The notes below the pieces were generated by a model. That model did no database searches, was not told the DNA's origin, and was given only the letters and a program-made list of their open reading frames with translations. Shown piece by piece: positions 42,299 to 63,651 of a stretch of DNA of 64,000 bases. How positions within the stretch are numbered: the first letter of the stretch is position 1; every line of letters starts with the position of its first letter. A program made the translations under genes and the position numbers. Source of the stretch: Thuidium tamariscinum (lineage: Eukaryota; Streptophyta; Bryopsida; Hypnales; Thuidiaceae); contig OX344749.2 of the NCBI GenBank assembly GCA_947034885.2, positions 5,347,501-5,411,500 of the forward strand. Reading direction: 5' to 3'.

Positions 42299-45200
42299 TT
42301 AATCACTTGGTGAAAAATCCGAATCACCCTCAACTTCATCGACATTAGGGTCTGATTCTCCATTTGACTCGCCACTGCCTCTATTGCCATCTGAGCTTTC
42401 GTTCTCGTCATCCTCTCTCAATATTGGCTCAGCTTGTATTTCATGTTCTACCTCTGAGTGCAAATTTCGCACCTGAACATCTATACCTCCTACCTTTTCA
42501 ACTCGTACTAACCGTTTTGTAGGCCTCGTTGCATCTGTAGTGCCATCAATAATAGATAAAGGAGGCCGACCTCCAGTACTTGATTGTCCAACTCTTTGCG
42601 TAGAGCCCTCCACCGCCATGTTATATTTGTGAACAACATGGTTAGCACGTTTTGGATTCCCTTGTGTCCTTTCATCAACCCTTCTAATACGTCGTCTTTT
42701 CCCTCCGGTATTGCGTGTATGCGCTTCCAATGATGATTGTCCGGGGAGTGACATTGATGTCACTTGGGTAGGTTGTGGAGTAGATTGTGGTACTACTTCC
42801 GTAGTGGATGCTATTGGATGCACCCTTCTTGAAGGATTTGGAACCGACCTTCTCACTATAGCTGGAGTTGAGTTCCTGCCACGATTGCGATATATGACAC
42901 TGTTCAATGGCGCATCTGAATCATATTCCAAAGTTGTTGTAGTTTGGGTGGTTGATGGATTCATCGTTCTGGAAATTGGAATCCCCGTGACATCTCCCTG
43001 CTGGACGGGAGCTTCTTCTTCTTCTTGTTCACTTCCCACGCTAGCTTGTCCAACATTCAAAGGATTCCTTGAATCACTCAAAGGAATACGTGTTGGTACT
43101 GGAGATCTCTCTTGACAATGTGATGGTGGCATTGGATGAGCCACGTTTTCGTTGTTATCAACAGGAATTTCCCCCACATTTGATGGTGCATTTGGTGACC
43201 ACACTCCATTCCACACATGGACACGGTCAGCCTCTGGAGAACGAAAAAGTTCTTCATCAATGGAATTGTTCCGATCATCGCCACCCGCATATGTATCTCG
43301 AGTAGGGTATTCAGGCGAACTCGGTCGAGGGGGATCATTGCATTCCAAGGATTATTACGCAAGCGATCCTCTTCTTCTCTACGGATTACATTGGCTTCAT
43401 AATAATCAAAACCAATCTCTTCATCTGATGCAGAATGCAAGGGCTCATCGTCCTCTTCCTCACTATCTCCTCCATCAAGATACTTCTCGTAAAAGAGGGT
43501 AGGGTTGTGTCCACGTTTTTCACGTTCCAATTTACTGTTGGTGTAGATATAGACCAAATCTTCTGCCTTGGATGTGGTTAGGCGGTTCCGCACTTTGCTG
43601 TGCACAAACGAATACATGCTCCAATTCCTTTCGCATGAAGATGTTGAGCATGTCAAGCCTAGAATTCTCTTTGCAATCTTCGGAAGAGCATTACCACCTA
43701 CTCGATTCCACCATTAATGAGGCAATAAGTTGCATTGAGTAATATCAGGAGCCTCTTCTAAAGGGTCGAATGGACCTGTCTTTTCCTCAAATTGCGTCAA
43801 CTCATGCATTGCCTTCAGTACTGACACTCCTAATGTAGGGGCCAATTTTTGAATGACTCGATTTAAAGCTCGCTTGGCAATGCCATCATCTTGAATGTCT
43901 GCTACATCCACCAAAAATGGATTCAATAGGGCACCAGCATAGTGGAGGTCTGTTAGCATTAACTTCCAACGAGCATCAAACTTCTTCTCGTAGCGTGTTG
44001 CAACCTCCGGTGTCAAAAGAAAAGGAGGCTCCCTAAGAGAATATACATGCCTTTTCAAGTCTTTCATGATTATCCAAGCTTTTGGCATTGCCGGGATTTT
44101 TCCATCAAAGTGTCGTAGAGCAATGAGCACGGGCTCTACCATGTGCAAGAAATTCTCGCATCTTATCCAAAACCCTTCCGAATGAATGTTCAGTCGAACA
44201 TCTTTTGCTTTGCGCATTAGTATACCTCCATTTTGTCTGACATTCAAACTGAACTCGAATGCCATATACCCCTCGTCTGCAATCACCATGTGCAAAGCTT
44301 GCTTGCATTCCACTAATCGGTCTATCATGAGAAAATTGGTAGCAAAGCGTGTTGCTCCTGGAAGTCTCAATACCTTCTTCGGTGACCATTTCCGAAATAG
44401 AGCTAGTGTGAAGTGGTATTTTCGAACGAACTTTACCATTTCCCTACAGTCCTTGACCAAATCCTTCACTCTTTGATCCTTTCCCCAATCCTCCAAAAGT
44501 AAATCTAGAATGTGAGCTGCACATCCTTGTTTATACATGTGAGGGTACTTCTCTTCCAAGCTTGTCATAGCTCCCGTCATTACTGGGGCATTATCTGTGC
44601 ACATTTGGACAATGTTGGCTGGACTGACCTCTTCTATGTATTTTGTCAAAATCTCAACCGTATACCCTAGGTCCTTTTTATGCCCCGTACTGTCCACTGA
44701 TCCCAAAAAAGTATCCCCGACTGGACAAACAAGCATCATATTCATCAATGGACGTCTATTGGTATCTAACCATCCATCTGTACAAATAGTTGCACCATAT
44801 TGGGCAATAGAATGTTTTGTCCGCTCAGTGACTACTTTCTTCACCGCTGCCTTCTTCACATCAATCATTTTTGTGCAGATTGCGTTCATTGCGGGTAGGT
44901 GATACAAGAATCCAGCCGCTGCAGTTTCTTTCACAGCCTTGATGAAGGCAGGGTGTCGCACAACGTTGAACGCAATGTTAGCCTCGTAAAAGAAAGAGGA
45001 CCACATCCTATCCAACTTCTGCTTGAGGCCCACTTGTAATGATTCATCCATACTTCTTTGACGAGAAGTTGAAGGGCCACTCCTTGTTCTCTCGACCATA
45101 GCTGGAGTAGAATCCACTGAGTCAAGGCCGATAGTCTGACTTTCGTTCAAGCCAATAGGATCCCCACGGCCTCCCACTTCTATGTGCTCTAGTTCTTGAA

Positions 45201-45537
45201 TGATGGATTCACCCTCAACATTGCTTGGGGCACCAACTAATGGTGCCTCATGCATTTCTTCAAAGCTCATGGCTTTAGGAACCGCCCCACCACATGCTGA
45301 AAACATGTTCTTCACACTCCTAGGGATTTTAGGACAACGCTTTGATGTTGTCGATCCGCCATATCCAAAGTGACTAAATGCCCTCTTCCGTACAAATACT
45401 TTGCTCCATCCACAAAATAGACATTTCCGAGGATAATTCGAATTATCGTTAGGTGTACATGGTATGAGCCAAGGATCCCAATCTTTTGTGGCCCTCCGTG
45501 TATCGCTTGCTCCATGTCCCCCACCAGGGCCAACCAT
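42299..45537 (-). pseudogene. BED-type hAT transposase (DUF659 + dimerisation domain), one in-frame stop
   Basis: The main frame runs 45537 to 43714 (607 aa). A BED-like zinc finger lies near the start (C39-x2-C42, H56, C68). The DUF659/RNase H-like core has CTDGW (D254), MCTDNAP (D315) and GCAAHILDLLLEDW (C339, H342). A TAA at 43716-43714 follows NLLPH. The same frame then continues directly with WWNRVGG, LPKIAKRILGLTCSTSSCER and VRNRLTTSKAEDL, the hAT C-terminal dimerisation region. So a single nonsense change splits an otherwise intact transposase. Further on, frames at 43348-42299 encode a disordered acidic tail ending in SDFSPSD, offset by one base (a frameshift or small intron). Terminal repeats were not found, so element limits are unknown. 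An array lies 250 bp upstream of the start. Confidence 0.88.
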
Positions 45538-45762
45538 AGTGCAAATCTAAAAGTGATCTTGGCGCCAAAACACTGGATCAATAAAGTAAATAGTGTAAAA
45601 GATGTAATGACAAAGCTACCCACTTTGAGTGATTTTAAAAACCTCTCAAAGCAAAGTAGTTGTCCTCCGTTGAATCCAAACGTCCGCAAGAAGCTTCTTT
45701 CGAAGGTTCAAGTCAAGAGTCTAATCACTAGAGCAAGATGAGAAACTATTGCTTCCCCCAAC

Positions 45763-45770
45763 ATATATAG
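45763..45770 (-). promoter_or_regulatory. TATA-box candidate for the hAT gene
   Basis: CTATATATG on the minus strand lies between array B and the start codon, about 230 bases upstream of the ATG. The position fits a core promoter driven by or next to the array. Confidence 0.45.
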
Positions 45771-45785
45771 TGCCTCATTCCATTT

Positions 45786-46085
45786 ACCCGCGGTCGCCCT
45801 ACATGAGACTGCGGGTGAAGGGCCAAAGGAAGGCAAACTCTGGAATTTGGAGGGGCGACCGTGGCTAATTTCGCGACCGCGGGTCCACTAGTGAGGCGAC
45901 CACGCGTTCAGGGGGGCGACATCGGGTCCAAAGGTAAGGCGACCGCGCGTTCAGGGGGCGACAGCGGGTCCAAAGGTAAGGCGACATCGGGTCTGGAGGG
46001 CGACCGCGGGTCTGGTAGGCGACCTCGCCTAGGTCTGGAGGGCGACCGCGGGTCCAGAGGTAGGGTGACCGCGCATGCCAAATCT
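45786..46085 (+). repeat. GC-rich array B, upstream of the hAT gene
   Basis: About ten GCGACCGCGGGT-like units, with variants (GCGACCGCGCGT, GCGACATCGGGT, GCGACAGCGGGT), occur in longer blocks such as AGGGGGGCGACATCGGGTCCAAAGGTAA. The plus strand carries the G-rich orientation; the gene it precedes is on the minus strand, as with arrays C and E. At the outer end, AGGGTAAGAAACGCG resembles the array C outer border TGGTAAGAAAATTC. Confidence 0.8.
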
Positions 46086-46126
46086 GAGTTGGAGTTTAAG
46101 AAAATGTTTCCAGGGTAAGAAACGCG

Positions 46127-46710
46127 TCTGGCCCTTGGACCTGTTTGGAATTTCTGCTAAGTCAACAAAAAGACTACTTCATTATGAGCGTCATCAATTT
46201 CTTGAGAAATGTAATTGTACAAATTCAAATTAGACATATTAGACATCAATTAGGAAAATCCAACACATCATCATCACTTTTGGATTGAAAGATTATAATG
46301 TTTGCTCATGAGGGTGTAAAAATTGTAAAAATGAGTTTAAGTCTTCCAATAGTCTTTTCCCAAGTCAAATCCTAAAAAATTTTGAGGAAAAAAATTAACT
46401 AGAATAACCTAAAATGTATAACCCCAATCAAGTTTTGGCTCAATAAAATGTATTGGGCTATTCTTTCAAATGAATTTCTAATGTAATTTTATATCCAAGA
46501 TCTAGTATATGCAAGTATCATTTCGATGGATACCCTAGCAGAATATCTTAGATAGAAAAATGATAGTCTATTATTTTCAATATAAGCTTAAAGCATACTT
46601 CAAAAACTTTCTCCCAAAATGTAGTCCAGTAAAAATAGCAACTTGGTTAGGTTTTATTTAACTTCAAGATTTTGGAAACACCAAATTAGTGTACCCTTGT
46701 CTTATAGAGG
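46127..46710 (-). mobile_element. Diverged TTAA-type MITE copy next to array B
   Basis: This matches the 55296-55933 family in reverse: GGATTGAAAGATTATAATGTTT, then ATCTTAGATAGAAAAATGATAGTC, then TTGGTTAGGTTTTATTTAACTTCAA. The end is near GAGGTTAAC. The outer ends are decayed. Confidence 0.55.
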
Positions 46711-49343
46711 TTAACCATACATGACCAAGACTTTTTTTAATCTTCTTGGAATTTGTTCTAAATTGAAGAAAAAATGAACATTTTTATAAGCCTTATCAAA
46801 ATCTTGTTCAATGTTACAATAACAATTCAAACAAGATATGTTAAACATTACTTAGAAAAATAAAACACAACAATATCACTTATTGATTGAAAGATTATAA
46901 TGTTTTATTGTGGAGGTGTTAAAATTCCAAAAGCCTATCAAACTCTTTGAATCTTCTTTTTACTTGAGAAATCTAAGAATTTAGTCTCCAAAATATTTGG
47001 GGTTCAAGTGCCTAACATGCCTAACATCAATCAATTCCAATATTCTCAAAATACACTCTACAATTTATTTAAACGAATTTCCAACAATCTCATACAAAAC
47101 AAATTATTTCTTATTTCATTAAGGGTCAATCCAGCTACTGAAGTGATAGATTTGTTACGACTTCTTCAAATTTGAGGATAAAGTTCAAGTGATGTATTGT
47201 TTTAAATATTTAATAATTGGATATTTAAACACATGTGTCTCATTTAATACTTGCTTAGAACTATTTAAGAATCAAAATGAATTTACTATCTTCCAATCTA
47301 TTTTATATTATTAAACTGATCTATAATTCATCACTACACAAAAAACAATTGTCCTATACAAACACTTTGGAGATAGAAACAATTATTACATTATTGCATC
47401 ATGTACAATACAATTTTTTCTTTGGTACATTGGTCATCAATGACATCAAATCAACAAGCAACAATATGTGTTCTCCATTCTTGGAATTCTTCCCCAATTT
47501 TGAAATTGACATTCAATTTCTTTACAATTTAGAGTCACCTTTTCCTAAAAGGCTCCACATTCATTATTTGGCTTTTCTTTTTTTATTGATAATGAATGAA
47601 TTTAATTTATTTTTAATAGATGAGATGTAAATGAAATTTCATAATACAATTGTTACATGCACACGTTATCGAGGTACTACTAATCATAAGCAATTTTATC
47701 TTTTTTATTTGGAGAACCTCTACATGTAGTCATCTACTATCTATTTCCATGTACAAATTTTACATATGTAGATTTTATTATTCTAACAAAATTTGGATTT
47801 TCAAATAAGCTAACATAATTTGGATTTTTTTTCAAAAATATTGTGTATTTCATGCTCATTCAATAGAGCCCCACAATTCCACAAAGGTACCTATAGAAAC
47901 TAGAAAGTCAAGAAAGCAATGACACATTTACAGAGAATGTTCAATGAAAAATCACAATCTATCATTTTTTATATCAAAATTTTTTATGCTTCAAGTGAAT
48001 TTGGAAAAATAAATATTTGGAAATTCTAAATTCTAAAAATAGAAATATTATAAGGTTAGATTATTCCTCCAATTTTTTGAAACACCACATTTTTTTAGCT
48101 TTGGCATTCATTGCTTCAAAAATATTTGATTAGCTCCCAAGTGGGTAAAAAAATCCTTGAATTCCTAATGAAAGCTTTTGTTGAACATCTACAAAGATTT
48201 TTAAACTATAATGAGTAGTAAACAATTTGATATAATTTATCCATTTTTTGGAAGATATAACCAAATAAATTTAAAGCACACATGTTATAGAGAACTTCGG
48301 AAAAACAATATCACTTATGGATTAAAAGATTATAATATTTGATTTCATAAAAGTAGCAAAAACAATTTGAAGGGTTCTAATTCTCTTTTCAAATGTGAAA
48401 TCTCAAATCTCAAATTGGTTGCCAAAATAAATGCAGTGCAGAGGCCCTACATACATCATTCTAATCTATTTTTGTTTCTTAGGAATGTATTCTTCTGTAT
48501 TTTCAAATCGATTTCTAATAGGATTTTTCCTACACGATGTATTGTATGTCTGTATTTTATTGATAATTCATGTCCAATAGCTCTAAACATTGTAAAAGAC
48601 CTTGATTGCAGTGGACCCCCTTGTAAGGTATCTTGAATAGAAAAATCATAATCCATCTTTTCCAAATTTATTTAATTGAAGCTAAAAGTTGACTTCAAAA
48701 AGAAATTTTCAAAAATATAATGTATTGAAAATAGCAACTTCGTTAGGTTTTGTTCAACTTCAAAGTTTGACAAACATTGGATTTTTGTAGCTTGGACATT
48801 TCATATTCAAGAATTATTAGAAACTTTTAAATTTCCTATTTTTTATTCTACAAGGACCTCTAAACCCTTTGTGGCCATGTAGTTTGTATATGATGAATAT
48901 AATGGTAATCAATTGAAAAACAAATGATTCATGCTATTCAATGCAAAGTCAATCAATTAGAATGATAGTGTGTATTTTATAAGTAACAATATATCACATT
49001 TCATATTTTTCATTAATATTTAAGCATTTATAAGGTTAAATACAAGTTGATCAAAAAAATCCAACGGTCATCCTATTATAAAGGCATTCAAAGATTGTTA
49101 CATTACACAGGAAAAAAAAGTCTTCCTGACCTTGCATTTCTAACACTCAATGCTTGGTGAAAAACCCAATCAATCTAAGTATCTAACTAAATCAAAGTTT
49201 AAAAAAAATCATATCATATGATTTTATTTCATTTAATTCCTATGGCCTTCAATCAAAAATTTTGAATCTGTGATTATTAATTTTAATTCATTTGCAAGGC
49301 TAAATATTGTATGTAAGGAACATCCATACTATCACCTTTTGTA
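46711..49343. other. AT-rich DNA with further decayed MITE copies, no gene
   Basis: Parts of the same TTAA-MITE family recur at about 46750-47140 and 48290-48790 (GATTAAAAGATTATAATATTTGAT, TATCTTGAATAGAAAAATCATAATCC, CTTCGTTAGGTTTTGTTCAACTTC). The remainder has no recognised content. Confidence 0.45.
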
Positions 49344-49347
49344 TTAA

Positions 49348-50270
49348 CCCCTAAAGGACTAAAGTCCCCTTGGGGGACACTTGGAATTTCGGGCAGGCTT
49401 GTGTGACTTGATTTTTGCTATGGTTTTTTTAAACTTCTTTTGAAGATAGGAAATCAGATTAGCTTTCCAAAAATATAATCTTTATTTCAATTGGTGCTTC
49501 GAAGCAAAAGTTATGCCATTCCAAGTCCAAACAATAGTTCACTAAGCCCAAAAAAAACACAATAAACATTGTTTTTAATTTTTAATTTTTTCTCTCTAAG
49601 ATTATATTGTTTTTCTACATTTGAAGCTTTGGTTGATTTAATTTGGACTAATAATGAAAAAGTGATGGTCTTGTGGACAATCTTGTATTTTGGGCAATCT
49701 AAGCACCTTCTTAAAAAAATAACTTATAGAATGTATTTTTGAATACAATTTTCCAAATTTTCCTAATTTTAATTTTTGATAGAGTTCAGGATGTTTGCAA
49801 GAACAAGCTCACCGTTGGGATCATAGTTTTCCAATTACATCTTAAAGTTATTAAGCACTTACTGTTTTATTCAATCTTGGACCTACTTTTGCTTCACAAT
49901 TTTTTCATGAATAAAAATCAAGTAGTTTTTCTTTTTAAAAATTTTCCCTAATCCTCAACTCAAATGTTCAATATAAAAAATTTTAACTTCATACTCCATA
50001 TTGCAAAAAAATTATACAAATGGCAATCAAAGTCATCTGAAATTGTAAGTAGAGTTCAAAAAAACTTATTTGGACAACTTTGAATGCTAATATCTTCCAA
50101 TCAGTGCAGTCAAACTTCATGAAATTTTTACCACATGATCTCAGACAAGTAATTTACAAGATCCTATAGTTAGATTCTAATTTTTTTTTTAGTTGTTTTC
50201 TTGGGAGGAAGTAGCAAACATGGCAGTTTTGAGTGGTTTCAAGCCACAAAATGCCTCAGTCCTTTGGGGG
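49348..50270. mobile_element. TTAA-flanked MITE, different subfamily, 923 bp
   Basis: The element is CCCCTAAAGGACTAAAG...CTCAGTCCTTTGGGGG with perfect TTAA on both sides (49344-49347 and 50271-50274). The interior differs from the other TTAA MITEs, so it is a separate subfamily with the same kind of termini. No transposase is present. Confidence 0.85.
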
Positions 50271-50274
50271 TTAA

Positions 50275-50790
50275 TAGACATCCCATTCAAGAACAATAAT
50301 AGGATCATTGACATGTCAATGAGTACTGTGAGAGTGTCACATATAACCAAACTTTGAAGAGATGGATGTTACATTTGTTAAATTCATTTTTTCTATGTAA
50401 TAAGACCATCACATTCAAATTTACAAACAAATCACCATGTGATGTGCAAAAAGTGATTGTATTAGAGAAAAAACTTTGATACGGAAATTAGAATGGAATT
50501 ATCCCAATATACAAATGTAAACACATGTATTCCAAAGCATTCTTGGAGATGCAATTCTAAACCAATGTTGTGCATAGAAATAATTCTTATCTCCTACATA
50601 TCCAAGCAATGAATTTTTGAAAATTGCTCACCAATTACTTGCAATCAATCATGCCTTTAGCAAATTTGAAAACTTTGAGTTAAACAATTCATCACAGCAT
50701 CAACAATGTATAAACCGAAAGGTATCAAATATATACATATGTAATTACAAAAAAACGTTGTGGTTCTCAAAATGCTAAAAAACTACCATG
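50275..50790. other. AT-rich DNA 3' of the coiled-coil gene
   Basis: Nothing recognised. It presumably includes the gene's 3' UTR. Confidence 0.3.
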
Positions 50791-52217
50791 TCACTCAACA
50801 TTTTTTTTGCCCTTCTCTTCTCTCTTCTGCCTCTTAGCTAATATTTGGGACCAAACCACCTTCTGTTCACTCTTGAGCTTGGATAGAATGTCATGTTTCC
50901 ACCACTCTCCACGTAACCAAGCTGTCTTAGTTGCTTTTTGCATCTCCAGGACTGTCTTTTGTTTATCCACTTTCTCTTGCAACTCATTTTCCACCTTAAG
51001 AGAAGCAACTAATTTCTTCTTCAATTCCTCTACTTCCAAGGGGGTCATCTCATGTTGTGTACAAAAGTCTCCCCAACCGTACATGTCAACAACACGGTCA
51101 AGTGGGGCTTTGTCCGTGATCTCACAAAGGTGCGTCAACCTCAATTGTGCCTCTTCAAGACCTCTTTTCTCACGGTCACAATGATCATCTTCTTCTTTGG
51201 AGTCCTCCATGGCTTTTGCAAGCCTTTTCTTTGTAATTGGATTATCGACCGTAGAACTAGAAGCTCCATCTTGAGAACCATAGAAGCTAAGATAAAACGC
51301 TTCCAAGTTCTTCATCTCCTCATGTTGCTTTGACAATTGGATTCGAGCAGTTTCAATTTGGGCTAGAAGGGTTGGAACCCCATCACCCAAATCTTCCATA
51401 GCCTCGTTCTGTAGAGTCTTTAACTCTTTCTGCTTCTCTTCCAAGTCTTGAAGAAGTAGCTTGAGATGATCATTGTAATACTCTTTCGTGTCTTCATAAA
51501 TTGTATCTTCAAGCTTTTCTTCAATGCCCAACATTTGTTCCACTTCAAGCTTTTCTTCAATACCCGACATTTGTTCCACATCAAGCAATGGCATTTGAAG
51601 AGGTGCCACCACTTCTTCCAATTTTGTAGGTGGCTCTTCCATCTTGGCCATATCCAATAATTCATTCAATGGTTCATTCTCTTCATCCGAATTCGCGTGA
51701 TGTGACCACTGATACTCATCAGTAGGCACTACATTCTTGATGAAAAGATTTTTTCCTAGCCCTGCTCTTGGATTGGGGGAGGGACCCGCTCTAGGAATGT
51801 CTTTGGTTGTTGGAATGGTGGCCATCTTCGATCCCTTGATGGTCCTCCAATCCACCGTTCTTCTCAGGATGACCTCCGCATACACCATCTCACGCAGATA
51901 CAATTGAACCTCATTTCTCGGCACGGTCTGTGTGTTGTGCAAGTACCGATAAACTTCAATACATCGTTGCACAAATGCATCGTGAGTGCACGAATGAAGG
52001 TTTGCCACATTCGATTGCACATGAATCTTGTGCCGATAATGATGGAAAAGCTTGTCGATGTGACACCACTGAATGAATCCCTTACAAGTGGTCGCGGTCC
52101 AATCACCTTGAATTCTATCCCAACCTGGATAAGCCATCGCATTAGGATCAAGAAGGATGTGGCGTTGCCTTTTTTTTTTTTTGCTTTGGCCTTCACCTTC
52201 TTCTTCATGGCATCCAT
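50791..52217 (-). CDS. Intronless coiled-coil protein, unknown family (448 aa from 52137)
   Basis: The long frame starts at 52137 and ends at 50791. Its first 100 residues are Cys/His/Trp-containing and globular-looking (DRIQGDWTATTCKGFIQWCH). Next come a Pro-rich linker and an acidic part with a tandem VEQM(S/L)GIEEKLE repeat. Long charged helices follow that should form coiled coils, and the tail is Lys-rich. No family was recognised. An upstream ATG at 52217 opens with a Lys-rich start (MDAMKKKVKAKAKKKK) in another frame. The two frames meet at a 13-base A run (about 52170-52182). A one- or two-base slip there would join them, so the true start may be 52217. Array C lies 180 bp upstream. 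Confidence 0.65.
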
Positions 52218-52394
52218 TGAACTGTAATCTTCAGTGGGTATTTAAAAATACCTCAATGTATGACGAGTTGCACGAGACACTAGCTTAGAGCACAAAGTGG
52301 AGAGGAATGAACCCCTGAAAAGTGAAAACAGTTGTTGAACACGCAGTCAGCCACTTCACGGTGGGTAACAACTAACAAGCAGTGCACAAAGCGA

Positions 52395-52706
52395 AAATGG
52401 CGAATGCGGGTGGAGGCGACTACTTATGCACCCGAAGTCGCACAGGGGCGAGTGCGGGTACAGGGCGAGGCGACCTCGGGTAGGGGGCGACTGCGCGTGG
52501 GCGACTTCGCGTGGGGCGACCGCGCGTCAGGCGACTACGGGTTGGGCGGGAAGTTCGAACTCCCCTCCTCCAGCGACCACACGTGGGGCGACCGCGGGTC
52601 GGGCGGGAAGTTCAAACTTCCCTCCTCCAGCGATCGCGCGTGGGGCGACCGTGGGTCGGGTGGGAAGTTCAAACTTCCCTCCCCCAGCGACCGCGCCTCC
52701 TGGTAA
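52395..52706 (+). repeat. GC-rich array C, upstream of the coiled-coil gene
   Basis: GCGACCGCGGGT-like units are followed by three head-to-tail copies of a unit of about 57 bases (from about 52546). Each consists of GGGCGGGAAGTTC(A/G)AACT(T/C)CC, CTCCAGCGAC and one or two array units. The unit contains the palindrome GGAAGTTCAAACTTCC or a near form. The inner border (52343-52395) matches the inner border of array E. Confidence 0.85.
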
Positions 52707-53060
52707 GAAAATTCAGGGTTTTGAAATTGCCCCCAAAAATGATTTGGCCACCTAAAATTTTGGAGGCAACTGGCTGGATCCACCAAAGAGTATTGAAGAT
52801 ATTGACATGTAAATGCCCAAATCATTTCTTAAATTGTTTGAGAAAAATAGTTTTTGTTCAACAATAAACCAATCCTTTCATAAGCTTAAATTATCCATTC
52901 TTTTCTAAAAGTCATCCAACAAATTAAAAATAGACATGTCTTAGACCAACTAGGAAAAACATAATACACGATATCTCTTATGGATTGATAGATTTAAATG
53001 TTTCATGATAGAAGTATTCAAATTGCCAAATGAACTTCTCTTCTTTTCATCATGTTTTCC
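52690..53060. repeat. Outer flank of array C, shared with array D, running into a decayed MITE
   Basis: CAGCGACCGCGCCTCCTGGTAAG is followed by GAAATTGCCCCC, TTTGGCCACCTAAAA, GGAGGCAACTGGCTGGATCC and TATTGAAGATATTGACATG. The same blocks occur after array D (56794-56935). From about 52806 the sequence resembles the TTAA-MITE family in reverse (GTAAATGCCCAAAT..., GATATCTCTTATGGATTGATAG). Confidence 0.75.
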
Positions 53061-55291
53061 CAGGTCTAATCTAAAAAAGTAGTTAGTGGAAAAAAAAGCA
53101 GAGGGTTTCATATACATAATTCTAATCAATTTTTGCCTTCTCCGAATCTTCTATGTACAAATTATAGAAAAGAAATTTTCAGTTCATTTTTCCTTAAGCC
53201 TTTAATGTAATTACAAGTCATCTCCGTGATACCTACTTAAGGACTTAAAAAAGGCAAGATTGCAATAGACATCTTTACAGTAAATCTTCAACCCAAAAAA
53301 CATAACCAATCATTTCCAGATCGGTATTATGATGCTTAAACTAGACATCCTTTAGTAATTTTCTCATTAATATGAACTAGTAAAAATAGGAATTTCAATC
53401 AAATCTATTTTGCATTGCAATTGAGGAAAAATCAAATTTATGTGCCTCCGAATTCTACGGGTTAAAAGAATGAGAAACACATTCATGCCGCATTCCCTCC
53501 CCTAATTAGTCTTCATGTAAATAAAAATCATGCCATGATGTTGTGGAGGGAAACATGAGAAAATATCCTTACCAATTCTTTGGGACCCCTTCACTAACGA
53601 TGTTGGTCATTTATGTTGTGCTTAGTTGGATGGAATGTAAAATCAATATTACTAATATATTCTTAACAATAAAATTTGAGAAATCCATATCAAATATAAA
53701 TCTTGGTTCAAAAATCTAAAATTTCAAGAGTAGAAGCAAATTATAGTGTAGAAAATTACAAGGTAAATTAACTTTTGTACCACTCTATATTTTGAAATGT
53801 GCTTGTACATATTCAAATTCAAACTTCACTAATCTAAGGAGATCTTCTATATTTTAGGGAATAGTAGAAACTAAATTTCATAAGCTTCATTTATTGTTTT
53901 TTGTCAAAATCAAAAGAAAGTTTTCAAATTGTCAAAATCAAGTTCCAAGAGAAAAAGAATTAAAAGTAATGAAATGCATTAGACAATGTACCATTTCTAG
54001 GGTTCAAAACAATCCCATATAAACTTATTTATTTTTAAATGTCTTGAACTCAAATGAATAGTGTGGCTATAGCGCTCGTCAATGAAGTTACATTGAAAAT
54101 ATTGTGTGAAGATCATCCATTCTTCAATATATACAAAGTTCAGTTGATCATTTGAAGGACAAAAAATGTCCTCAACATCCTTGAAGGATTAAAAATCTAT
54201 TCAATACATGTAATATTTCTCATTCATACAAGTTTATAATAGGATCTTTTCAAATTTGCAACCATGTAAAGAAGTGAGGAGTTCTTCATTCTTTCTTCTT
54301 ACAAGTATCTTTCTTTTAACCAATAGCAAAAAATAATCTTTACTAAGATCATGAAGTTCTTTTACATCTATGGTCATGGATGAATGTTTGAAAATGGATG
54401 CAAATCCACCTTTTCATCTAAAGTACATAAATTTATCTCAAGTAGAGCCTTCATGTTTGGAAATTTGATAACAATGAACGCAATTCATCCCTTGGGAAAA
54501 AAAAGAATTTATCATGAAAGATTATCTTTCAAAAAATATTTTTTATTTTCTAGAAAAAGTGAGTACAAATGTACAATTAATCACTATAATTTCATAACTA
54601 TACTTTACTAAAATCTTACTAAATGTCATCTTTGGAAACAAAGTGTAGTTTAAGTCTAAAATTCGATTTAGTCACCTACCTAACTATAAGATATCAAAGT
54701 AGATAGTATAGAAATGTGTAAATGAAAATTGTAAACTTTGAGGTTAGCCAAGGTAAATTTTTTAAAGATTTGAGGTTTAATTCCTAAAGGGATCAAGGGT
54801 TCATTCAAATTTTCAAAATTATAATGATATACTATAAAATGAAATATAGGATAACAATTTAATCACATAATTCAATCAAAAGTGATTATCTACATAATAT
54901 ATCCCTATAGTTAGATAATTGGTACACTATCACTATGACAGTATGACTTATTTTTCAATTAAATTTGAACCTTTAAAATCACTGTAAAATAAAGTACAAA
55001 TAGAATAATTGTAACTATCTTCTTACAAGAATTTTCTTTACGTTCAATATAGTATGTTTAGATTGTAATTATTATTTATGATTTTTATTTTACTTATTTA
55101 TTCACATCGTTTTGGAATGGTAATTTCTTGAATTCAAAAGTTTGTTCACAATTTCAAACATACTTTATTTTCTTAAGTACAGAAGATTTGCAAGAGTATT
55201 TATGAAAATCTAAATTAAAAAAATGAAATAAAAACAACACAATAATCTACAAGTGTTCTGATGTCTGCAGAAATGAAAAATTGTGTGTTTT
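53061..55291. other. AT-rich DNA, no gene
   Basis: No supported coding or structured feature in this 2.2-kb stretch. Confidence 0.35.
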
Positions 55292-55295
55292 TTAA

Positions 55296-55933
55296 CCCCT
55301 AAATGCCCATGGCACTCAAATGTGGTGTCAAAGAAACTTTGAAGTTCATGAAAGCCTTACCAAAAATTTATTTTTAGTGGTTTATATTTTTGGAAGGCTT
55401 TTTTCAAAGTCTAGATTTACCATCAATAATCCAATTTTGAAAATGAATGATTATGATTTTTCTATTCAAATTTTAATGCAAGGGTACCCATTGCAATCTT
55501 GACAATCCATAGTGTTAAAGACTCTTGGAAATGAGCCTCAAATACACTAGATCTTAGAGAAAAAATCACACAAGAAATTCATTTCAAAAAATTTTAGACT
55601 ACATTTTGAGAAGCCATAAATTGATTGTGGCTATGCTTCTTAGGCCCTAACACCTAGTATTGTTTTGGTGACCACCTTTTTAGATTTGACATGCAAAAAG
55701 AGAGCTCAAAGATTTTCAAACTTTCTACACCCTCATGATCAAACATTACAATCTTTCAATCCAGAAGTGATATACTTGTGTTTTCTTTTTCTGGGTGATC
55801 TTTAACATGTCTACTTCAAATTTCTAAAGTTTCAATTAAAAGAAAATTTATTCAACTTATCAAGAATGTTGCATCTTGTTCCAATTTAGAGCAAATTCTA
55901 AGAAATTCAAAGTAAGCCTTAGGCATTTAGGGG
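55296..55933. mobile_element. TTAA-flanked MITE, best-kept copy of its family, 638 bp
   Basis: The element is CCCCTAAATGCCCATGGC...GCCTTAGGCATTTAGGGG with TTAA immediately on both sides (55292-55295 and 55934-55937). The interior is shared with 7370-7964, 46127-46710, about 48290-48790 and about 59880-60290. piggyBac-like non-autonomous ends; no ORF. Confidence 0.9.
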
Positions 55934-55937
55934 TTAA

Positions 55938-56324
55938 ACACTTTTGTATTCATTTGTTTATCACTACTTGAAGACATGGTCTCTTATAAGTTATGTCTTA
56001 ATTGTACAGAGTTGGGGAAAAAATGATTCATGGCAAATAATTCAAAAAGGGTTAAATATTTTAATTTCAGGCCTTAGGATTTTAAATATTAAATTCCCCT
56101 TTTTGTTTGAATAAGATCAATACTCTTCAAATAATGAAAAGTCAAATCATATTCTAGCACCTCCAAATAGGAACACAACCCTTTTGAGGTAGGCGAGTAA
56201 TCCTGCCTAATTCTGCAAAAGGCTTGATGCCCCTGGTCTGAATGTACTGGTTCCTGTGCCAATGGAATTTTCTCCATTTGTTCAAAAAGAAAAAAAAATA
56301 GAAAAAATAAAGGCACGATCGTGT
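55938..56324. other. Sequence before array D, unidentified
   Basis: A minus-strand open frame here (to about 56300) has no recognised domain and is not called as a gene. An A-rich run (AGAAAAAAAAATAGAAAAAAT) lies just before the array. Confidence 0.3.
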
Positions 56325-56815
56325 CTCGAGCGACCGCGGGTCTTGGCGTGGAATTTCTAAACCCCCGATTCTGGCACTGCGAACGCGCACCCGCGAGTGG
56401 GCGACAGCGGGTTGGCGCGACAGCGCGTAGGGCGACCTCGGGTCCTGGCGCCATGTTCAAGTCCTTCGAATCCTGGCACACAGCGACCGCGGGTGGGCGA
56501 CTGCGCGTGGTGGCAACTATGGGTCATGCGGGGAAGTTCAGAAGCCCCGATCTTGGCACTGCGACCGCGGGTGGGTGCGACAACGGGTTGTGCGACCTCG
56601 CGTGGGGCGACCTCGGGTCCTTGCGGGAAGTTCAACACTCCACTCTCATGGAACACAGCGACCGCGGGTGGGTGCGACTTCGCATCGAGGCGACCTCGTG
56701 TCTTGGCGGGGATCCTGGGACACAGCGACCGCCCTTGGGTGCGACCTCGGGTGGGCGACCGCGGGTCCGACAATTAAAAAGCCTCCAAAAGAACAGCGAC
56801 CGCGCCTACTGGTAA
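56325..56815 (+). repeat. GC-rich array D (largest, no adjacent long ORF)
   Basis: Nearly 500 bases with about 15-20 array units are arranged in four or five longer periods of about 75-95 bases. Each period has a GCGGG(A)AGTTCA-like or CATGTTCAAGTCC-like block, then TGG(C/A)ACACAGCGACCGCGGGTGGG, then more units. It shares its outer flank with array C. Confidence 0.85.
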
Positions 56816-56935
56816 GGAAAGGAATTAATTTGAAATTCCCCCCTCCCCCCCCCCCCAAATTATTTGGCCACCTAAAAATACGGAGGCAGCCGGCTGGATC
56901 CAACCAAGATTATTGAAGGTATTAACCCCTACCTA

Positions 56936-57751
56936 CCCAACCGACCATATATGGTCGATCTGAAATTAAAGGCCCATATCTGAATAGGCAGTTACATTCC
57001 TTGAACCTTAAAAAAAAAATTAGACACTTTTAAGGGTTAACTATTGAGAACTTTCATTTTTCACTGTAAAAAGTATATATTTGATTATTGAGAGGTCTTC
57101 AAAGGCATACATGTGTCATAAGTGAAGTGTAAAGCTTGCCAATTTTACTTCATTTCCTAGATTTATGCAATTTCACTTGATTTGAGATCTAAGAAATAGT
57201 ACATATCCATTTGCTTTGAGAATGGTTAGAATGGAAAGAAGAAAGTGTTTCCATGATTCAACATTGAAAATTTAATCATACAACTATTGACTTGGAGTTA
57301 TTTCCAAATTCTACTTTAAAAAAATAATTGCATTTCAACAATTGCAAGGTGGATTGTCTAATGAATTCAATAGCTTTTCATGTGAAACTAATTTTTTTTT
57401 TAAATGCATTTTAGTGTGCTAACACTCTTTGTAGTTAATTATGTCCCCTCCAACCCCCAACACAATTCATATGCAAATTTGAGAAACTTTGTGGGAAAGA
57501 GCAATATACAAAGTATAAAAGATGTACTACTCTCTTGTTATAATCTCACAACTCCTATGCAATTTTGTACTCAAAATTTGTGTACTTACTAATAAACAAG
57601 TTCTTTAAACATCCATGTGGTATAATTTGGGAAGAAAATCAATTTGCTTCACTAGGGATGACTACAAGCTCATATATTTTTTTCATATTCAAATACACTT
57701 GAAAAATATGAAAAAATAAATAAAAATTGAAAAGGCTTGGGCATTTAGGGG
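56936..57751. mobile_element. TTAA-type MITE inserted in the array D outer flank, 816 bp
   Basis: It is flanked by TTAA (56932-56935) and TTAC (57752-57755). Ends are CCCCTACCTACCCAACC and GGCTTGGGCATTTAGGGG. It is the inverted relative of 2411-3221. The equivalent place beside array C (TATTGAAGATATTGACATGTAAATG, about 52790) is unoccupied, which shows directly that this is an insertion. Confidence 0.85.
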
Positions 57752-58515
57752 TTACCATGTAAATGTCCGGAGTACTTCTTTAATAGTTTTAGGAAAATAG
57801 TTATAATTGAACAATACACCAATCCTTTGGTAACCTTAATCCATTCATTAGAGCCTTAGAGGATTTTTGAGTTCTAAAGAGGGCCGCTAAGAGGTGTTTG
57901 GAAGGGTGCTTTTGTATTTAAATATTCTCCTTGAGGATGACTACTTCCCTATACGTGCTCATTGGAAAAGATTTTTTTCCAATGTGTACTTCCATGTGAC
58001 AATAGCTTTCATTGGGTGGATCACGGAGACCATGATGAAGCTTTGTCATTTAAAATTTGGGTTTAGGACATGAAGATGACACCAAACTATCCAATCAGGA
58101 ACACTATTTTGTACAACCATTAAGATAATAATATAGTATTGTACATTGACTCCACTAGTGGATTTTCTTTTACAACCATTGATATAATGTTATACTATCC
58201 AAATTTAATATTTGGTAATAGTGCCTTGTTATTGTAGTCTCTACTTTTACTTCACACAATATTTCAACTACTAGTTTTTGTCTTCATTAAATAGGTGTGC
58301 ATGTCTATCTCTAAGGGCCTTATATAGATTTCAAAAACCCTCTTATGCTTTGCTATAAGTCATCCAACAAATAAAAAGTAGACATGTCTTAGATCAAATA
58401 GGAAAAACATAATACACGATATCTCTTATGGATTGAAAGATATAAATGTTTCATGATGGAGGTGTTTCAAATTAGCAAATGAACTTTTCTTTTTTTCATC
58501 ATGTTTTCCCAGGTC
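57752..58515 (-). repeat. Continuation of the array D flank: decayed MITE split by an insert of about 490 bp
   Basis: 57756-57850 and 58345-58515 match the array C flank (CATGTAAATG..., AATACACCAATCCTTT, then GTCATCCAACAAAT, CACGATATCTCTTATGGATTG). About 490 bases between them (57850-58345) are absent beside array C, so they are an insertion here. The insert's ends are not clearly resolved. Confidence 0.65.
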
Positions 58516-59879
58516 TAAGGACTTCCTTGTACCAAATCTATATAAGTTAATGTTTTGAATTCAGTTTGAATATTGCCAAATAAAATATGGTATTACATGA
58601 TATCAACTAATCCATTTAAAAAATTAAAGATTCGAACATATTCAAACCACTAAGCCAGATGAAAATAATCTATTGTGATGAAGTGCAATTGATATAATTA
58701 GTATCGCACTTGTGCTCATTAGCTTGTATAAAATTGATCCTCTTATAATATCTCGTTTTGCCAATTCCAATTTTTACAGAATATAAGATCCTTTTTAAAC
58801 ATACACCTAATTAGATTCTCCTTAAACATACACCGAATCGGATACTTTAAGTATATATAGAAAATTTTTATTTAAGAAATTCCTCTTCTAAATACACATT
58901 CCTCTTCTAAATACACATTCCTCTTCTAAATACACTAATTGCAAACATGACATGAAACTTTTGAGACTATTAACACATTCACTGTAAGGAAAGATGGAAT
59001 GGGATTGGTAGACTAGTATTACATTCCTAGTACAACCTATCTAATATCTACAAATTAGTGACGTGGTAATTAACGACGAGACTAATTGATGATGCGACCA
59101 CCAGACCAACTCACAAAATAACAACACTAATTAAGAGTTTTGGTTCAATAATGGAATATTAAAGGAGATACCCCAAGACCCAAGTCAATTTTTTTCTAAT
59201 GCACACCTTTAATTTGTACCCTACAATATATTTAAAAACACCCTATATCATTTTCTATATATTGTAGTATATAAAATTTTAAAATCAAATTGTAATTTTT
59301 ATCAAAATGATTATTTGGCATCCTACATTTGTTCATACATATATAGCTACTTCTTCCACTCACTGTAGCCCTTGGGATTGAATAGTCTTACAAATATTAA
59401 ATCATTGCATGTATTTGTTGTTCATCACTTACACTTCTTTGCAACAAACTTTAGAGCCGCTCTTGTTTGTTGGAATCAATGGACTGGTAATTTGGAAAAA
59501 AATCATTTTAATATTAACAATCTTTCTATGAATCTCCCTATGACCCTATTCTTATTTTAATTCAACAAAATTTGAAAACATCACACCACAATTGGAGATG
59601 TAGCATCCAAAAAATAAAATAAAAGTTGTTCCCTAAAGGGTTATAAGGGTCTATGCATGTATACCATTCTAACATTTGTTTAAAGCAAAAATTGAAAAAA
59701 GTCATCTACCAAGGATGAAATAATATTAGATGAAAATGACTCAAATATACTTCTAATTTAAAATTAGTAGCCTTATTGAAGTCTATAAATTCCTATACAA
59801 ATGAAGTTTGTAATTCAAGTACATTTTTCAACAATAGACATAAATAAAAAGTGATGTGAAGTCTTTGTATTCTGTTTTC
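58516..59879. other. AT-rich DNA, no gene
   Basis: Apart from the short tandem repeat at 58881-58936, nothing was recognised. Confidence 0.35.
58881..58936. repeat. Tandem repeat, 3 x 19 bp
   Basis: TTCCTCTTCTAAATACACA is repeated three times without change until the last bases. Confidence 0.9.
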
Positions 59880-60290
59880 AGAAGTAAAATTTGAAAAGTT
59901 GGTGACCAAAGAAATACGAGGTTAAAGGGCTTAACATGCATGATTCCAATCAATTTATGCCTTTTCAAAATCTAATCTACAATTTGTTTAAATGAATTTT
60001 GAACGTGCATTTTTCTCCTAAATTGAGCATATAAGCGTATTTGAGGCTCATTTTCAAAAACTCTCAACACTACGTAAAGTGAATAATGTAATGGGTAGTT
60101 GATTAACCTTGCACAAAATCTTGAATAGAAAAATCACTGTCAATCATTTTCTAAATTGGATTGTTGACATTAAAATAAGACTTCTTAGAAGACTTTCCAA
60201 AAAATAAGAACCACTAAAAATAACAACTTTGTTAGTTTTAATTTAACTTCAAAATTATGCAAACACCAAAGTTAGGTGCCTTGGGCATTT
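59880..60290 (-). mobile_element. Partial TTAA-type MITE copy, reverse orientation
   Basis: TTGGTGACCAAAG, GATTCCAATCAATTTATGCC, AAAATCTTGAATAGAAAAATCACTGTC and GTGCCTTGGGCATTTAG match the 55296-55933 family in reverse. The far end is not recognisable. Confidence 0.6.
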
Positions 60291-60922
60291 AGTAATTTAT
60301 TGATTAAAGACTTATAAGAGACTTCCACGACCTACTAGTACATTGGAAGAAGAGGATTTCTTCCATAATTCAATGAACATTAGAAAGTGAAATAGTTGTG
60401 TGAGGTGAAATTTTTTGTTTAGAAGTCTCTTAAGAGAAATCAAAATTGATATTGTCTACGAAAATGTGGCACAGAAAATCAATTGTTTGAATAATTCAGT
60501 GGACACAAAAGTATATTCATTATTTCAGTGAAAGATTTGGCTTCGATGATTTGATTTTCAAATTTTTGTATCAAATCGTAAATGACAAATGCAATCAATG
60601 CTACATCATTTACTATCTTAAACTACAAATTTTACTTGGTTAATTCTTACTATAAAATAATTTGATAGCCCGCATGTCTAATACTCAATAACTCAAATTA
60701 CATATGAATTTCAAACATTTGGAAATTCATCCAAGTAATCAAATATTTTTTCATTCAACTTTCAATATGTTTGATTTAGTAGTGTGAACACATTGTTCAT
60801 AATATAAAATATTTTTATATACACATAAATCCTATTACAAAATGAAAGGCACACAATGTGGCCATTAGCTTCCTTGTACTAAAATACTCTCTACTAAATC
60901 ATACTCCCTCATACACTCACTA
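60291..60922. other. AT-rich DNA 3' of the pseudokinase gene
   Basis: Nothing recognised; it probably includes the 3' UTR. Confidence 0.3.
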
Positions 60923-62503
60923 CTACAGAGGTGAGTCACGGAAAACTAATTCGGGGGGTTTCATGTACCATGGAGGCCCCATGAGCAAACTTACCACCTC
61001 CGTACACGTTGGTCTGTCCTTTGGATCTTTTCTAGTCAATTGATCCAACTTCAAGGCAAAGTACCTACATGCATCTCGATTTTTGAAGATGTCTTCATCA
61101 AAGTCGCCAGTCCACTCAATCTTCATGCTTTCTGCCAATTTTCCAATAGAATATGAATCCGATTGCACGGTATATCGATGCGTTGCTTGCATAATGGATA
61201 GGCTTGTATCGAAATTTTGTGGCCCAAATGTGTAGAACAACTCTGGAGCCACCCACCAACGCCCTAGTTGTTGTCTCTCCATCTCTTCATTGGTACAGTA
61301 TCCATAGTGCGATGGGGCTTTCTCATCCATATGACTTGCAATTCCCCAATCACAAATACCGATGTTGATGATCTCGTTGGAATAATCAGGAAAATGCAAC
61401 AATATATTCCTTGGAGACAAGTTGTTGTGCAACACCAATGATTGATGCATAAGATGAATCACGTACACAAGAGCCCATGCTAATTTGGCCTTGTGCCTTC
61501 GAAAAAGGCTGACTTCTTTTTGTTTCTCCTCAGGCAATTGTCTGATCTGATTCACCTTGTGCCATTCCACGGTTGGTGACACCTTCTTGTTCAAATCGAG
61601 CAATTCACCCAAATGACCTCCATTCCACCATAGAGTATACGCCTCCATGGTTTTTGAATTCATGGCACAAAACTTTATTATGCTAGCATGATTTAGGGGA
61701 CATACCAAGGCTTCTACGGATCGTTCCACCCTTGCATCGTGCAAGTTCTTGGTTTTTGGCATTTTCCCAGCTAAAGTGATATATTCAGGGAACGTATCCA
61801 ACCCTAAAATACGCACTTTGCGCACCTTGCCATGCCCACCTTCACGACAGAATCCACTAAGGGGCTCCACCTTTGCTGAAGGTGGTATCCAAGTAATACA
61901 TAGTCCACCATCTTTTGCAAATGCAACCTTCACAGCATCGTTTTTCCACTTGAAACCCCTTGATCCAGACTTTGATAATTTCTTCACAACTGTTTGCCAC
62001 CATTCCATCTTCTCACGAAACTCCTTTGCTTCATCATCTAGTGGTTGCCCTGCCACTTGTGGTCGAAGATTAGTCATCAATCTCTTGGTATTAAAAATTA
62101 TAGACTGAACAGTGTCGGTAAGCCAACGTTGAAGGCTTGAATTGTATGTCAAATCCACGTCTTTGAAATCATCAGATTCATAACACTTGCTTAAAATCCT
62201 AGCCTCCAAATCATCCACCAATTTTAGAGCACCTGTCGAGGGATCTCTGAAATAGCTTGCCTCCAGAAATTGCACACTTTTTCTTGCATACCATTGTAAG
62301 GACACCTCATATGCAAACTTTGTATAACTTGGAGGTGGGTACGTCGGGTCCTTCTCATTAGCTGTCCTAGGCTTCTTTGGCTTGGTTTCGGTTGCACTCC
62401 CAGTTGTCACGCCTGTAGCTATAGGGACTTCAAAATGCTTAGGATCATCTAGATCCCAAATTGACCTCCGCCTCGTGCTAGTGCCTTCATGTGGATTGGA
62501 CAT
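60923..62503 (-). CDS. Intronless protein kinase-like protein, probably a pseudokinase (526 aa)
   Basis: One exon-like frame runs from ATG at 62503 to a stop at 60923. Residues 1-210 are a non-kinase N-terminal region of unknown family. The kinase-like fold runs from about 211. It has a glycine-rich loop GFCREGGHG (217-225), a possible Lys in AGK (247), HASII (about 272-276), and a catalytic loop LHNNLSPRN (358-366) in place of HRDLKPxN. CDWG (384-387) stands for DFG, WVAPE (417-421) for APE, SDSYSIGKL for the DVWSFG region, and DPKDRP precedes the C-terminus. The catalytic Asp is Asn (HNN), so phosphotransfer is unlikely although nucleotide binding may remain. The frame is fully open, which argues for recent activity or selection. 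Array E starts about 140 bp upstream. Confidence 0.8.
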   Translation of the reverse strand: MSNPHEGTSTRRRSIWDLDDPKHFEVPIATGVTTGSATETKPKKPRTANEKDPTYPPPSYTKFAYEVSLQWYARKSVQFLEASYFRDPSTGALKLVDDLEARILSKCYESDDFKDVDLTYNSSLQRWLTDTVQSIIFNTKRLMTNLRPQVAGQPLDDEAKEFREKMEWWQTVVKKLSKSGSRGFKWKNDAVKVAFAKDGGLCITWIPPSAKVEPLSGFCREGGHGKVRKVRILGLDTFPEYITLAGKMPKTKNLHDARVERSVEALVCPLNHASIIKFCAMNSKTMEAYTLWWNGGHLGELLDLNKKVSPTVEWHKVNQIRQLPEEKQKEVSLFRRHKAKLAWALVYVIHLMHQSLVLHNNLSPRNILLHFPDYSNEIINIGICDWGIASHMDEKAPSHYGYCTNEEMERQQLGRWWVAPELFYTFGPQNFDTSLSIMQATHRYTVQSDSYSIGKLAESMKIEWTGDFDEDIFKNRDACRYFALKLDQLTRKDPKDRPTCTEVVSLLMGPPWYMKPPELVFRDSPL

Positions 62504-62596
62504 GGTGCTCCTTCAAAGAAATAACACCAACTTCTAATTTCGTAGGAGAAAAATGCAAAAAGTCCGCCCCCAAGAAAATAAACCTGGACCAACGGG

Positions 62597-62905
62597 CACG
62601 CATTCAGCCACTCAGAGGTGGGTGAAAGACAGTGCGCATGGCCAAGAGTGGCGACTGCGGGTAATGGAGAACGCTTAAGTATCGGACAGCGGGTGCGAGG
62701 CGACCGCGGATCGGGAGGGGCGACTGCGGGTCAGCATGGAGGCGACTGCGGGTAGGTTTAGGGCGATCGCGTCTCTGTGGAGGGGCGACAGTGGGTAGGT
62801 GGAGGGCGACCTCGGATCGGGGTTTGGGTGACCGCGGATCTGTGGAGGGGCGACCGCGGATAGGGGGGGGACCGACCGCGCCTCTTCGGGGCCGACCGCG
62901 TCTGG
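62597..62905 (+). repeat. GC-rich array E, upstream of the pseudokinase gene
   Basis: It contains about ten units (GCGACTGCGGGT, GCGACCGCGGAT, GCGATCGCGTCT and others) separated by short GGTTTAGG or GTGGAGG spacers. Its inner border GCACGCATTCAGCCACTC...GGTGGGTGAAAGACAGTGC matches the border of array C (CACGCAGTCAGCCACTTC...GGTGGGTAACAACTAACAAGCAGTGC), although the two genes are unrelated. Confidence 0.85.
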
Positions 62906-63091
62906 GCTTCACTAGGTCATAGAAAAAAAGAGTTAGGAATTGTCAAATAGATTAGAAACTAATCTTTTGTTTTCTTTTGCATTATAAAATTTTATTTAAA
63001 AATTTTATTTGAAAAAACCAAAATACTTTAGAATCACAAATCTTTTTAAATAGGATATTTTAGTTTAAGAAATGAATTTTTTATTTTTCAG
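62906..63091. other. AT-rich stretch ending in a polypyrimidine-type acceptor
   Basis: It is probably the end of an intron of the following plus-strand gene; TTTTTTATTTTTCAG precedes 63092. Confidence 0.4.
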
Positions 63092-63651
63092 ACTTCGGCA
63101 ATGCAAGTTTAGGTGGTTTCGGTAGTTTACGCAACGGAAGTAAGGATCCACAAGAAGATGAAACGTTGGAGTCCATGTTTGGTCTACATTCGGTGAAGTC
63201 ATCGGATCGATCTCTTTTTTTGGGCGCAAATGAGATCATCATTCCAAACGGATCAAAAGCAAGACAACCAGCAATGAAAGAGTCCAAGAAAGCTAGAAAT
63301 AAAAGAATACTGGAGGCCTTTGCAAGATCACCATCAAAGCGGCAAAGTCTAGGTCGAACCCCCCTTGATGTATGTGAACCTTTCTCACAAAGCAAAGTGA
63401 AACCGGTTAATGGTCTTGAACAAGGGATTGGGAAGTCTACACTAGGAGGTAGAGACATGGTGAAAGAGAAAAAAAAGGGTAGACGCAAGAGATCGCTTGC
63501 ATCAAAGCAAATATCCGGAAGAAAAGAGCGAGCTCTACAGTCTTCATCTGATAGTATGGACAGCACAAGTAATGAAGAAGACTCGGAATGGGATTCAAGA
63601 GGTCATAGTAGTGGAGTTGAGGTGAGAGGAGACGTTGATTACAAGCCTTAG
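63092..63651 (+). CDS. Last exon of an unidentified gene (basic, Ser-rich C-terminus)
   Basis: The frame is open from the acceptor at 63091 to TAG at 63649-63651. It begins FGNASLGGFGSLRNGSKDPQ, then ESMFGLHSVKSSD, and contains a likely bipartite nuclear signal (KEKKKGRRKRSLASKQ). It ends in an acidic Ser-rich tail (SSSDSMDSTSNEEDSEWDS). No family was recognised. Earlier exons were not found in the window, so the upstream intron would have to be long or the gene is a fragment. Array E and the opposite-strand pseudokinase lie directly upstream. Confidence 0.55.

Follow-up and report, generated by a model that had tools for sequence, protein, structure and literature searches.

A giant five-gene hAT transposon of the moss Thuidium tamariscinum with motif arrays upstream of its genes and inside both ends

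Elements of the hAT superfamily, such as Ac/Ds, Hermes and Tol2, usually carry one transposase gene, and their terminal inverted repeats (TIRs) typically start with CAGGG. VANDAL elements, with which we also compare the present locus, are Mutator-like. Clusters of short motifs are known from several of these systems. For Hermes, 17 and 14 putative BED-binding subterminal repeats have been described at the two ends (PMC10368747). The VANC proteins are anti-silencing proteins of Arabidopsis VANDAL elements (PMC5735166; PMC10398659), and their targets are described as short motifs that lie at high density and in one orientation in non-coding DNA and undergo repeat gain and loss (PMC5735166). In Spm/En, TnpA recognises subterminal repeats (PMC2613891). 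A review of giant eukaryotic transposons makes no mention of hAT elements in its main text (PMC6431247), and we found no giant or multi-gene hAT element of a plant in the open-access literature that we searched.

We analysed a stretch of 64,000 nucleotides (the window), part of which belongs to a large hAT element. Like the described hAT elements, it has a CAGGG TIR, an 8-bp target duplication, a transposase with DUF659 and dimerisation domains and subterminal motif clusters; unlike them, it measures 37.6 kb (29.4 kb in a sister family), holds five conserved genes and has motif arrays before every gene as well. The likeness to VANDAL/VANC lies in motif behaviour: a dense, mostly one-orientation motif is clustered in non-coding DNA, including upstream of genes, is confined to the family and shows repeat turnover, with one array of the sister family (array B) as an exception in orientation. 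The VANC21 motif, by contrast, is given as YAGTATTAY, and the likeness does not rest on VANC homology. We rejected membership in the VANDAL family itself, as transposase and 8-bp duplication here are those of hAT; the element may thus work like VANDAL/VANC without being one of them. CACTA/Spm elements are similar in that motifs cluster at both of their ends (in En-1 the motif is 12 bp long), in reaching lengths of up to 20.5 kb and in having non-autonomous relatives, and differ in their transposase, in a 3-bp duplication and in clusters placed at the ends, where the moss element has them also at five genes (PMC2613891). ToxhAT of fungi (14 kb; PMC12506042) and other giant transposons resemble it in being large, and ToxhAT is hAT in name; the moss genes, in contrast, are a set conserved between two families rather than captured cargo.

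A giant hAT element with five genes

The arrays belong to a giant hAT DNA transposon with five genes, of which this region represents one copy. Arrays A-E and the genes for the transposase, a coiled-coil protein (CC1) and a kinase-like protein are all enclosed by the TIRs and target duplications of a single element of 37,636 bp (Table 1), which bears out an earlier proposal, made in a preliminary description of this DNA, that one large transposon family might be involved. The right limit of the element (G000:C1:5425549) lies 14,049 bp past the window end. A second copy of this family, F1, was found at C1:10193053 (C1:10.19-10.23 Mb). It is 36,733 bp long, is flanked by an identical 8-bp pair (ATGAAGGT), has the same 11-bp TIR (CAGGGTTTTCT) and can be aligned with the window from base 40413 to a common limit past the window end, its collinear pieces being about 95% identical. 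The sister family, F2, is 29.4 kb long (copies at C1:7134478-7163927 and C1:12734489-12763877), with a perfect 13-bp TIR (CAGGGTTGTTCTG) and identical pairs of 8-bp target duplications in the two copies (CGCACTGG and GTAACAAC). Most intergenic DNA cannot be aligned between F1 and F2. Short TIRs of the CAGGG type are thus present in both families, and 8-bp target duplications in both families and in a relative of about 9 kb (L049). Together with a transposase matching PF04937 and PF05699, these TIRs and duplications are the hallmarks of hAT, hence the assignment to that superfamily. The existence of similar copies with intact duplications suggests mobility in the past.

Table 1. Features of the element within the window
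Feature	Position	Strand	Basis or description
hAT element of 37,636 bp, part inside window	40414..64000	.	about 95% identity to second copy, collinear blocks, abrupt common limits
Target-site duplication CTTTCAAT, left copy	40406..40413	.	right copy directly 3' of element, outside window
Left TIR CAGGGTTTTCT, 11 bp	40414..40424	+	inverted copy at right end
Array A, left subterminal	40603..40820	+	9 units inward, first unit 190 bp from left end
hAT transposase gene (DUF659, Dimer_Tnp_hAT), interrupted in window copy	42299..45537	-	ORF and family matches
TATA-like sequence between array B and transposase ATG	45764..45769	-	sequence
Array B, upstream of transposase	45786..46053	+	10 units +, 1 unit -
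CC1, coiled-coil gene; N-terminal WCHIDKLF domain also in CC2, CC3	50791..52137	-	ORF, family comparison
CC1 proximal promoter box ACCCACC..GTGGCTGANTGCGTG	52340..52366	-	comparison among kinase, CC1, CC2
Array C, upstream of CC1	52400..52698	+	10 units +, 1 unit -
Array D	56330..56807	+	15 units; no neighbouring gene, ORF or promoter box found
Protein-kinase-like gene, catalytic loop HNN and DWG in window copy	60923..62503	-	ORF, family match
Kinase proximal promoter box	62597..62623	-	comparison among kinase, CC1, CC2
Array E, upstream of kinase	62651..62861	+	8 units

In the second F1 copy, the transposase matches DUF659 (PF04937; 120.4 bits, E 6.9e-35) and Dimer_Tnp_hAT (PF05699; 28.2 bits, E 1.7e-6), both above cut-off. 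A genome search yielded at least 43 transposase matches and at least 82 kinase matches (42 F1-type, 40 F2-type), both counts being lower bounds; 35 of the transposase matches span the whole query, and 13 of these are uninterrupted frames of 1082-1083 aa. For every one of the 42 F1 kinases, a CC2 match lies within 60 kb on the strand and side expected, 6-9.3 kb away in 34 of them; 37 of the 42 have a transposase match by the same measure, 16-25 kb away in 33 of the 37.

F1 and F2 have five genes in common, in the same order: transposase, CC1, kinase, CC2 and CC3-RING, the last two of which are located past the window end. The first three are each one open frame, which would fit intronless genes. 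The five proteins are 51-71% identical between the families, and the corresponding dN/dS values, approximate because synonymous sites are near saturation, are 0.22 for the transposase, 0.37 for CC1, 0.15 for the kinase (the lowest of the five), 0.27 for CC2 and 0.25 for CC3-RING. With two families carrying the same five genes in this way, the earlier idea of a family that swaps its cargo was not upheld. Between the two F1 copies dN/dS is 0.43-0.83, which points to little or no constraint on young copies. The label of pseudokinase, also given earlier, describes the window copy with its HNN and DWG motifs, but these motifs are HND/DWG in the second F1 copy and HND/DFG in three F2 copies.

CC1, CC2 and CC3 have in common an N-terminal domain (WCHIDKLF) some 105 residues long, in which 32 positions are invariant in the six sequences compared. 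Searches with this domain gave no match in Pfam or NCBIfam and no convincing PDB profile match, and viral contigs likewise gave nothing convincing; the single-sequence fold of the window CC1 domain was poor (pLDDT 41). The RING match of CC3 (PF13639, 20.6 bits) is below the Pfam cut-off of 27.3. No virus or recombinase genes were recognised among the ORFs scanned. The element also contains a 161-aa ORF (63166-63651, plus strand) that has no array and no family match above cut-off, and which may be a sixth gene or nothing.

Motif arrays at the genes and at the ends

At up to 2 mismatches, the unit GCGACCGCGGGT occurs 56 times in the window, compared with 0.40 expected in shuffles, and 54 of the 56 matches are grouped in the five clusters A-E. 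Past the window end, array F (one plus and nine minus units) precedes the plus-strand CC2, and array G, which has a terminal part and a CC3 part, precedes CC3. Neighbouring units are mostly separated by 2-14 bp, in places by up to 47 bp and more, and the arrays are not regular tandem repeats; GC content is 26-47% in 1-kb windows that hold no array. While unit number and spacing differ between copies, the unit itself persists, and its consensus is near-identical across F1, F2, ends and promoters; the ends of the 9-kb relatives favour GCGACCTCGGGT.

The preliminary description had placed arrays B, C and E about 150-250 bp upstream of three genes, in the same orientation relative to each. We measured distances to the ATG of 248 bp (B, transposase), 262 bp (C, CC1) and 147 bp (E, kinase), and nearly all units lie on the strand opposite to the gene, the exceptions being a single reversed unit in B and another in C. 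The three genes were confirmed, but the element runs 14 kb past the window and adds two more arrays and two more genes, so that an array lies 147-338 bp upstream of the ATG, in the same orientation relative to the gene, in five of five element genes. When the eight array blocks were placed at random in the element 200,000 times, at most three of the five genes had a correctly oriented array within 400 bp. The kinase of F2 is inverted (plus strand), and its array, mainly of minus-strand units, is inverted along with it. All 20 further kinase copies fetched (11 F1 and 9 F2, of 82) have an upstream array with 5-10 gene-oriented units and 0-1 reversed; for the remaining four genes, the arrays examined come from no more than two F1 and three F2 copies. 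In the window copy, the GCGAC side of most units faces the gene start or terminus that is served, at all five genes and both ends. In array B of F2 (G000:C1:7140393-7140936), plus and minus units alternate and only the six units adjoining the transposase are uniform.

Arrays A and D had been described as lacking a gene. Neither has an ORF in that relation, but A is not an orphan, since it is the left subterminal array. Array D has 20 units in the other F1 copy, and F2 has only 2 units at a possibly corresponding place; it may lie upstream of a non-coding transcript, or else be a relic.

Between array and ATG we observed two kinds of sequence. A TATA-like sequence precedes the F1 transposase and CC3 of both families, and the F2 kinase and F2 CC2 also hold one. 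A box of the form ACCCACC(5 bases)GTGGCTGANTGCGTG, with spacing that varies in some copies, is common to the kinase, CC1 and CC2, and the pairwise similarity of the array-ATG stretches of these three genes in F1 was equalled in none of 200 shuffles. Its core, GTGGCTGANTGCRTG, has three mismatch-free occurrences per copy in the five copies read, all on the gene strand, with one extra match at 2 mismatches in the F2 copies; it is absent beside array D and from two elements of about 9 kb. The pattern has 310 matches genome-wide at up to 1 mismatch, compared with 0 for the control. The earlier notion of a copied promoter-like element is supported only within the element, for the box common to these three genes.

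Six elements (two F1, two F2 and two of about 9 kb) were read from end to end for terminal arrays, and at up to 3 mismatches all of them have one at each end. The first plus unit lies 188-191 bp from the left end and the minus units start 136-218 bp from the right end, with one further match at 23 bp in L050. With plus units at the left and minus units at the right, both arrays point inward; in the window copy they lie about 190 and 140 bp from the two ends. Inward units are present at each of five further right ends, in one case just a single unit. Among 15 further left ends, an array is present in five (two of four F1, three of four F2 and none of seven F3-type). Nine of the ten array-less left ends were examined: seven stop at 361 bp with a right TIR (up to 2 mismatches) and are therefore MITEs, and the other two, with a diverged right-TIR-like sequence at 360 bp, were classed as MITEs.

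Short relatives and genomic distribution

Left ends occur 401 times in the genome at up to 2 mismatches. On C1-C4, where ends were typed, 35 of 42 F1-type left ends pair with a right end among those listed, giving 20 elements of 8.3-12.3 kb, 15 of 36.6-39.6 kb and, among these ends, none between. Only two of 36 F2-type ends (29.4 and 51 kb) and none of 20 F3-type ends were paired, the right ends listed being mostly F1-type; the F3-type is at least partly made up of MITEs.

The two elements of about 9 kb that were read (L049 and L050) keep terminal and internal arrays. Their ORFs of at least 100 aa, two in L049 and one in L050, all read through an internal array, and none of the five element genes appears in the matches listed between them and the large element. 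They are 88-92% identical to the large element over some 180-200 bp at the left end and 77-79% over 190-240 bp at the right end; elsewhere they share with it short pieces, mostly 67-79% identical. L049 is flanked by an 8-bp target duplication (TTTACTAC), and no target-duplication match was found in the L050 flanks compared. A large internal array of L049 (L049:4988-5808) has units at steps of about 162 bp and no recognised gene.

The 361-bp MITEs (L051, L052, L054 and L056-L059) share the ends of the giant element, and L053 and L055 are similar and diverged. They have ends and 8-bp duplications similar to those of the giant element and no array. In the seven with a right TIR found, the two copies of the duplication agree in all 8 bases in three cases, in 7 in one and in 4-5 in three. 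We therefore rejected the idea that arrays are needed for every transposition, with the caveat that another transposase may move the MITEs; arrays are dispensable for moving such short elements, at least by whichever transposase moved them.

The genome measures 363.2 Mb in 19 contigs. It has six matches to the LEAFY domain, which point to a plant, and 2,423 exact copies of the unit GCGACCGCGGGT, compared with 5 of the reversed pattern. The first 100 of these units, all on C1, fall into blocks of some 17-37 kb, apart from a pair and two single units, and 98 of them lie inside elements, which disfavours the arrays as a general host-gene promoter. Neighbouring kinase/CC2 matches are the basis for assigning to elements the cluster at C1:15.92-15.94 Mb and the last part of the one at C1:13.97-14.00 Mb, and the pair at C1:2.8365 Mb lies inside the left end of an F1-type element (L002), an assignment made from the left end alone. 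One of the two remaining units, at C1:2363509 (L001), is a single unit outside elements whose sole match, of 118 bp, is to window DNA outside the element; the other is at C1:5959776.

Comparisons for constraint on the units gave different results in the two families. CpG decay is lower at units than elsewhere in F1 (11/330 vs 37/411) and higher at units in F2 (15/334 vs 7/455), and these opposite outcomes allow no conclusion on methylation protection of the units. Column diversity, taken as a measure of purifying selection on the units and based on an uncertain alignment within arrays, is lower in units than in spacers in F1 (0.078 vs 0.140) and not lower in F2 (0.123 vs 0.117); neither comparison was counted as support.

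Possible roles of the arrays

We favour, with a probability of about 0.6, the reading that a DNA-binding protein encoded by the element recognises the arrays as clusters of binding sites; it would activate or un-silence the element genes and also serve the ends. The described behaviour nearest to this is that of VANC targets in Arabidopsis VANDALs (PMC5735166; PMC10398659) and of subterminal repeats bound by TnpA (PMC2613891) or by Hermes BED domains (PMC10368747). Candidate binders are the N-terminus of the transposase and the paralogous WCHIDKLF proteins CC1, CC2 and CC3-RING. With a putative binder beside every gene start, all element genes would be switched on or un-silenced at once, and the same binder some 140-190 bp inside both ends could open the termini for transposition or join in it. 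The 9-kb relatives without recognised genes would then exploit these sites and so parasitise the system. Among the short relatives, the array-less MITEs oppose a pure transposition role and the 9-kb elements without recognised genes oppose a pure promoter role, and a dual role fits both. Counted against this reading are array D without a gene, the internal arrays of the 9-kb elements without a recognised gene, the mixed orientation of array B in F2, the array-less MITEs, the discordant CpG-decay and diversity results, the weak or absent constraint between the two F1 copies and the lack of a convincing database match for the WCHIDKLF domain or of a BED finger in Pfam for the transposase N-terminus.

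A more far-reaching version, which we put forward only tentatively, is a giant hAT element regulated in a virus-like manner, in which a self-encoded factor would act on the 12-bp motif at both ends and all five promoters, the kinase and the RING protein would act on the host, and gene-less satellites of about 9 kb would hijack the system. The two promoter classes, TATA-like (transposase, CC3-RING) and ACCCACC-GTGGCTGANTGCGTG box (CC1, kinase, CC2), may in that case stage expression.

It is unlikely that the arrays are ordinary hAT subterminal repeats bound by the transposase alone, with the promoter copies serving only for transposase autoregulation. The inward arrays at both ends, retained in the two 9-kb elements that have no recognised genes, are consistent with such repeats, and Hermes likewise has putative BED-binding repeats at both ends (PMC10368747). 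The transposase N-terminus contains a CLFC..H..C stretch, kept in F2, that looks BED-finger-like by eye, but its first 100 residues gave no BED match in Pfam; moreover, the 361-bp MITEs move without arrays, and arrays at genes outnumber arrays at ends. Less probable still is a host transcription factor for which the arrays would be enhancers exploited by all element genes. Although the units are short and GC-rich and the arrays adjoin TATA-like or common proximal promoter boxes, the near-confinement of exact units to elements (98 of the first 100) argues against such a factor, as does the retention of arrays at both ends of two 9-kb elements in which no genes were recognised. Neutral satellite expansion of a GC-rich seed, by chance in non-coding DNA, is very improbable: copy number and spacing do vary strongly between copies, array D has no gene and the within-array conservation tests disagree between families, but placement and orientation are far from random, the arrays are kept across families whose remaining intergenic DNA is mostly unalignable, and the array goes along with the inverted F2 kinase.

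A hAT element with a conserved five-gene programme would widen the view of what cut-and-paste transposons contain. One motif at every promoter and both ends offers a clear test of how a transposon coordinates expression and mobility against silencing, with array-free MITEs, array-bearing 9-kb elements and full elements as a natural experiment.

The window also contains, as an inverted pair (11928-15705, plus strand, and 19881-23375, minus strand), a gene that matches the VWA domain weakly (E 0.015, below cut-off). A third copy, about 75-82% identical, lies just outside the element, at G000:C1:5427079-5430922.
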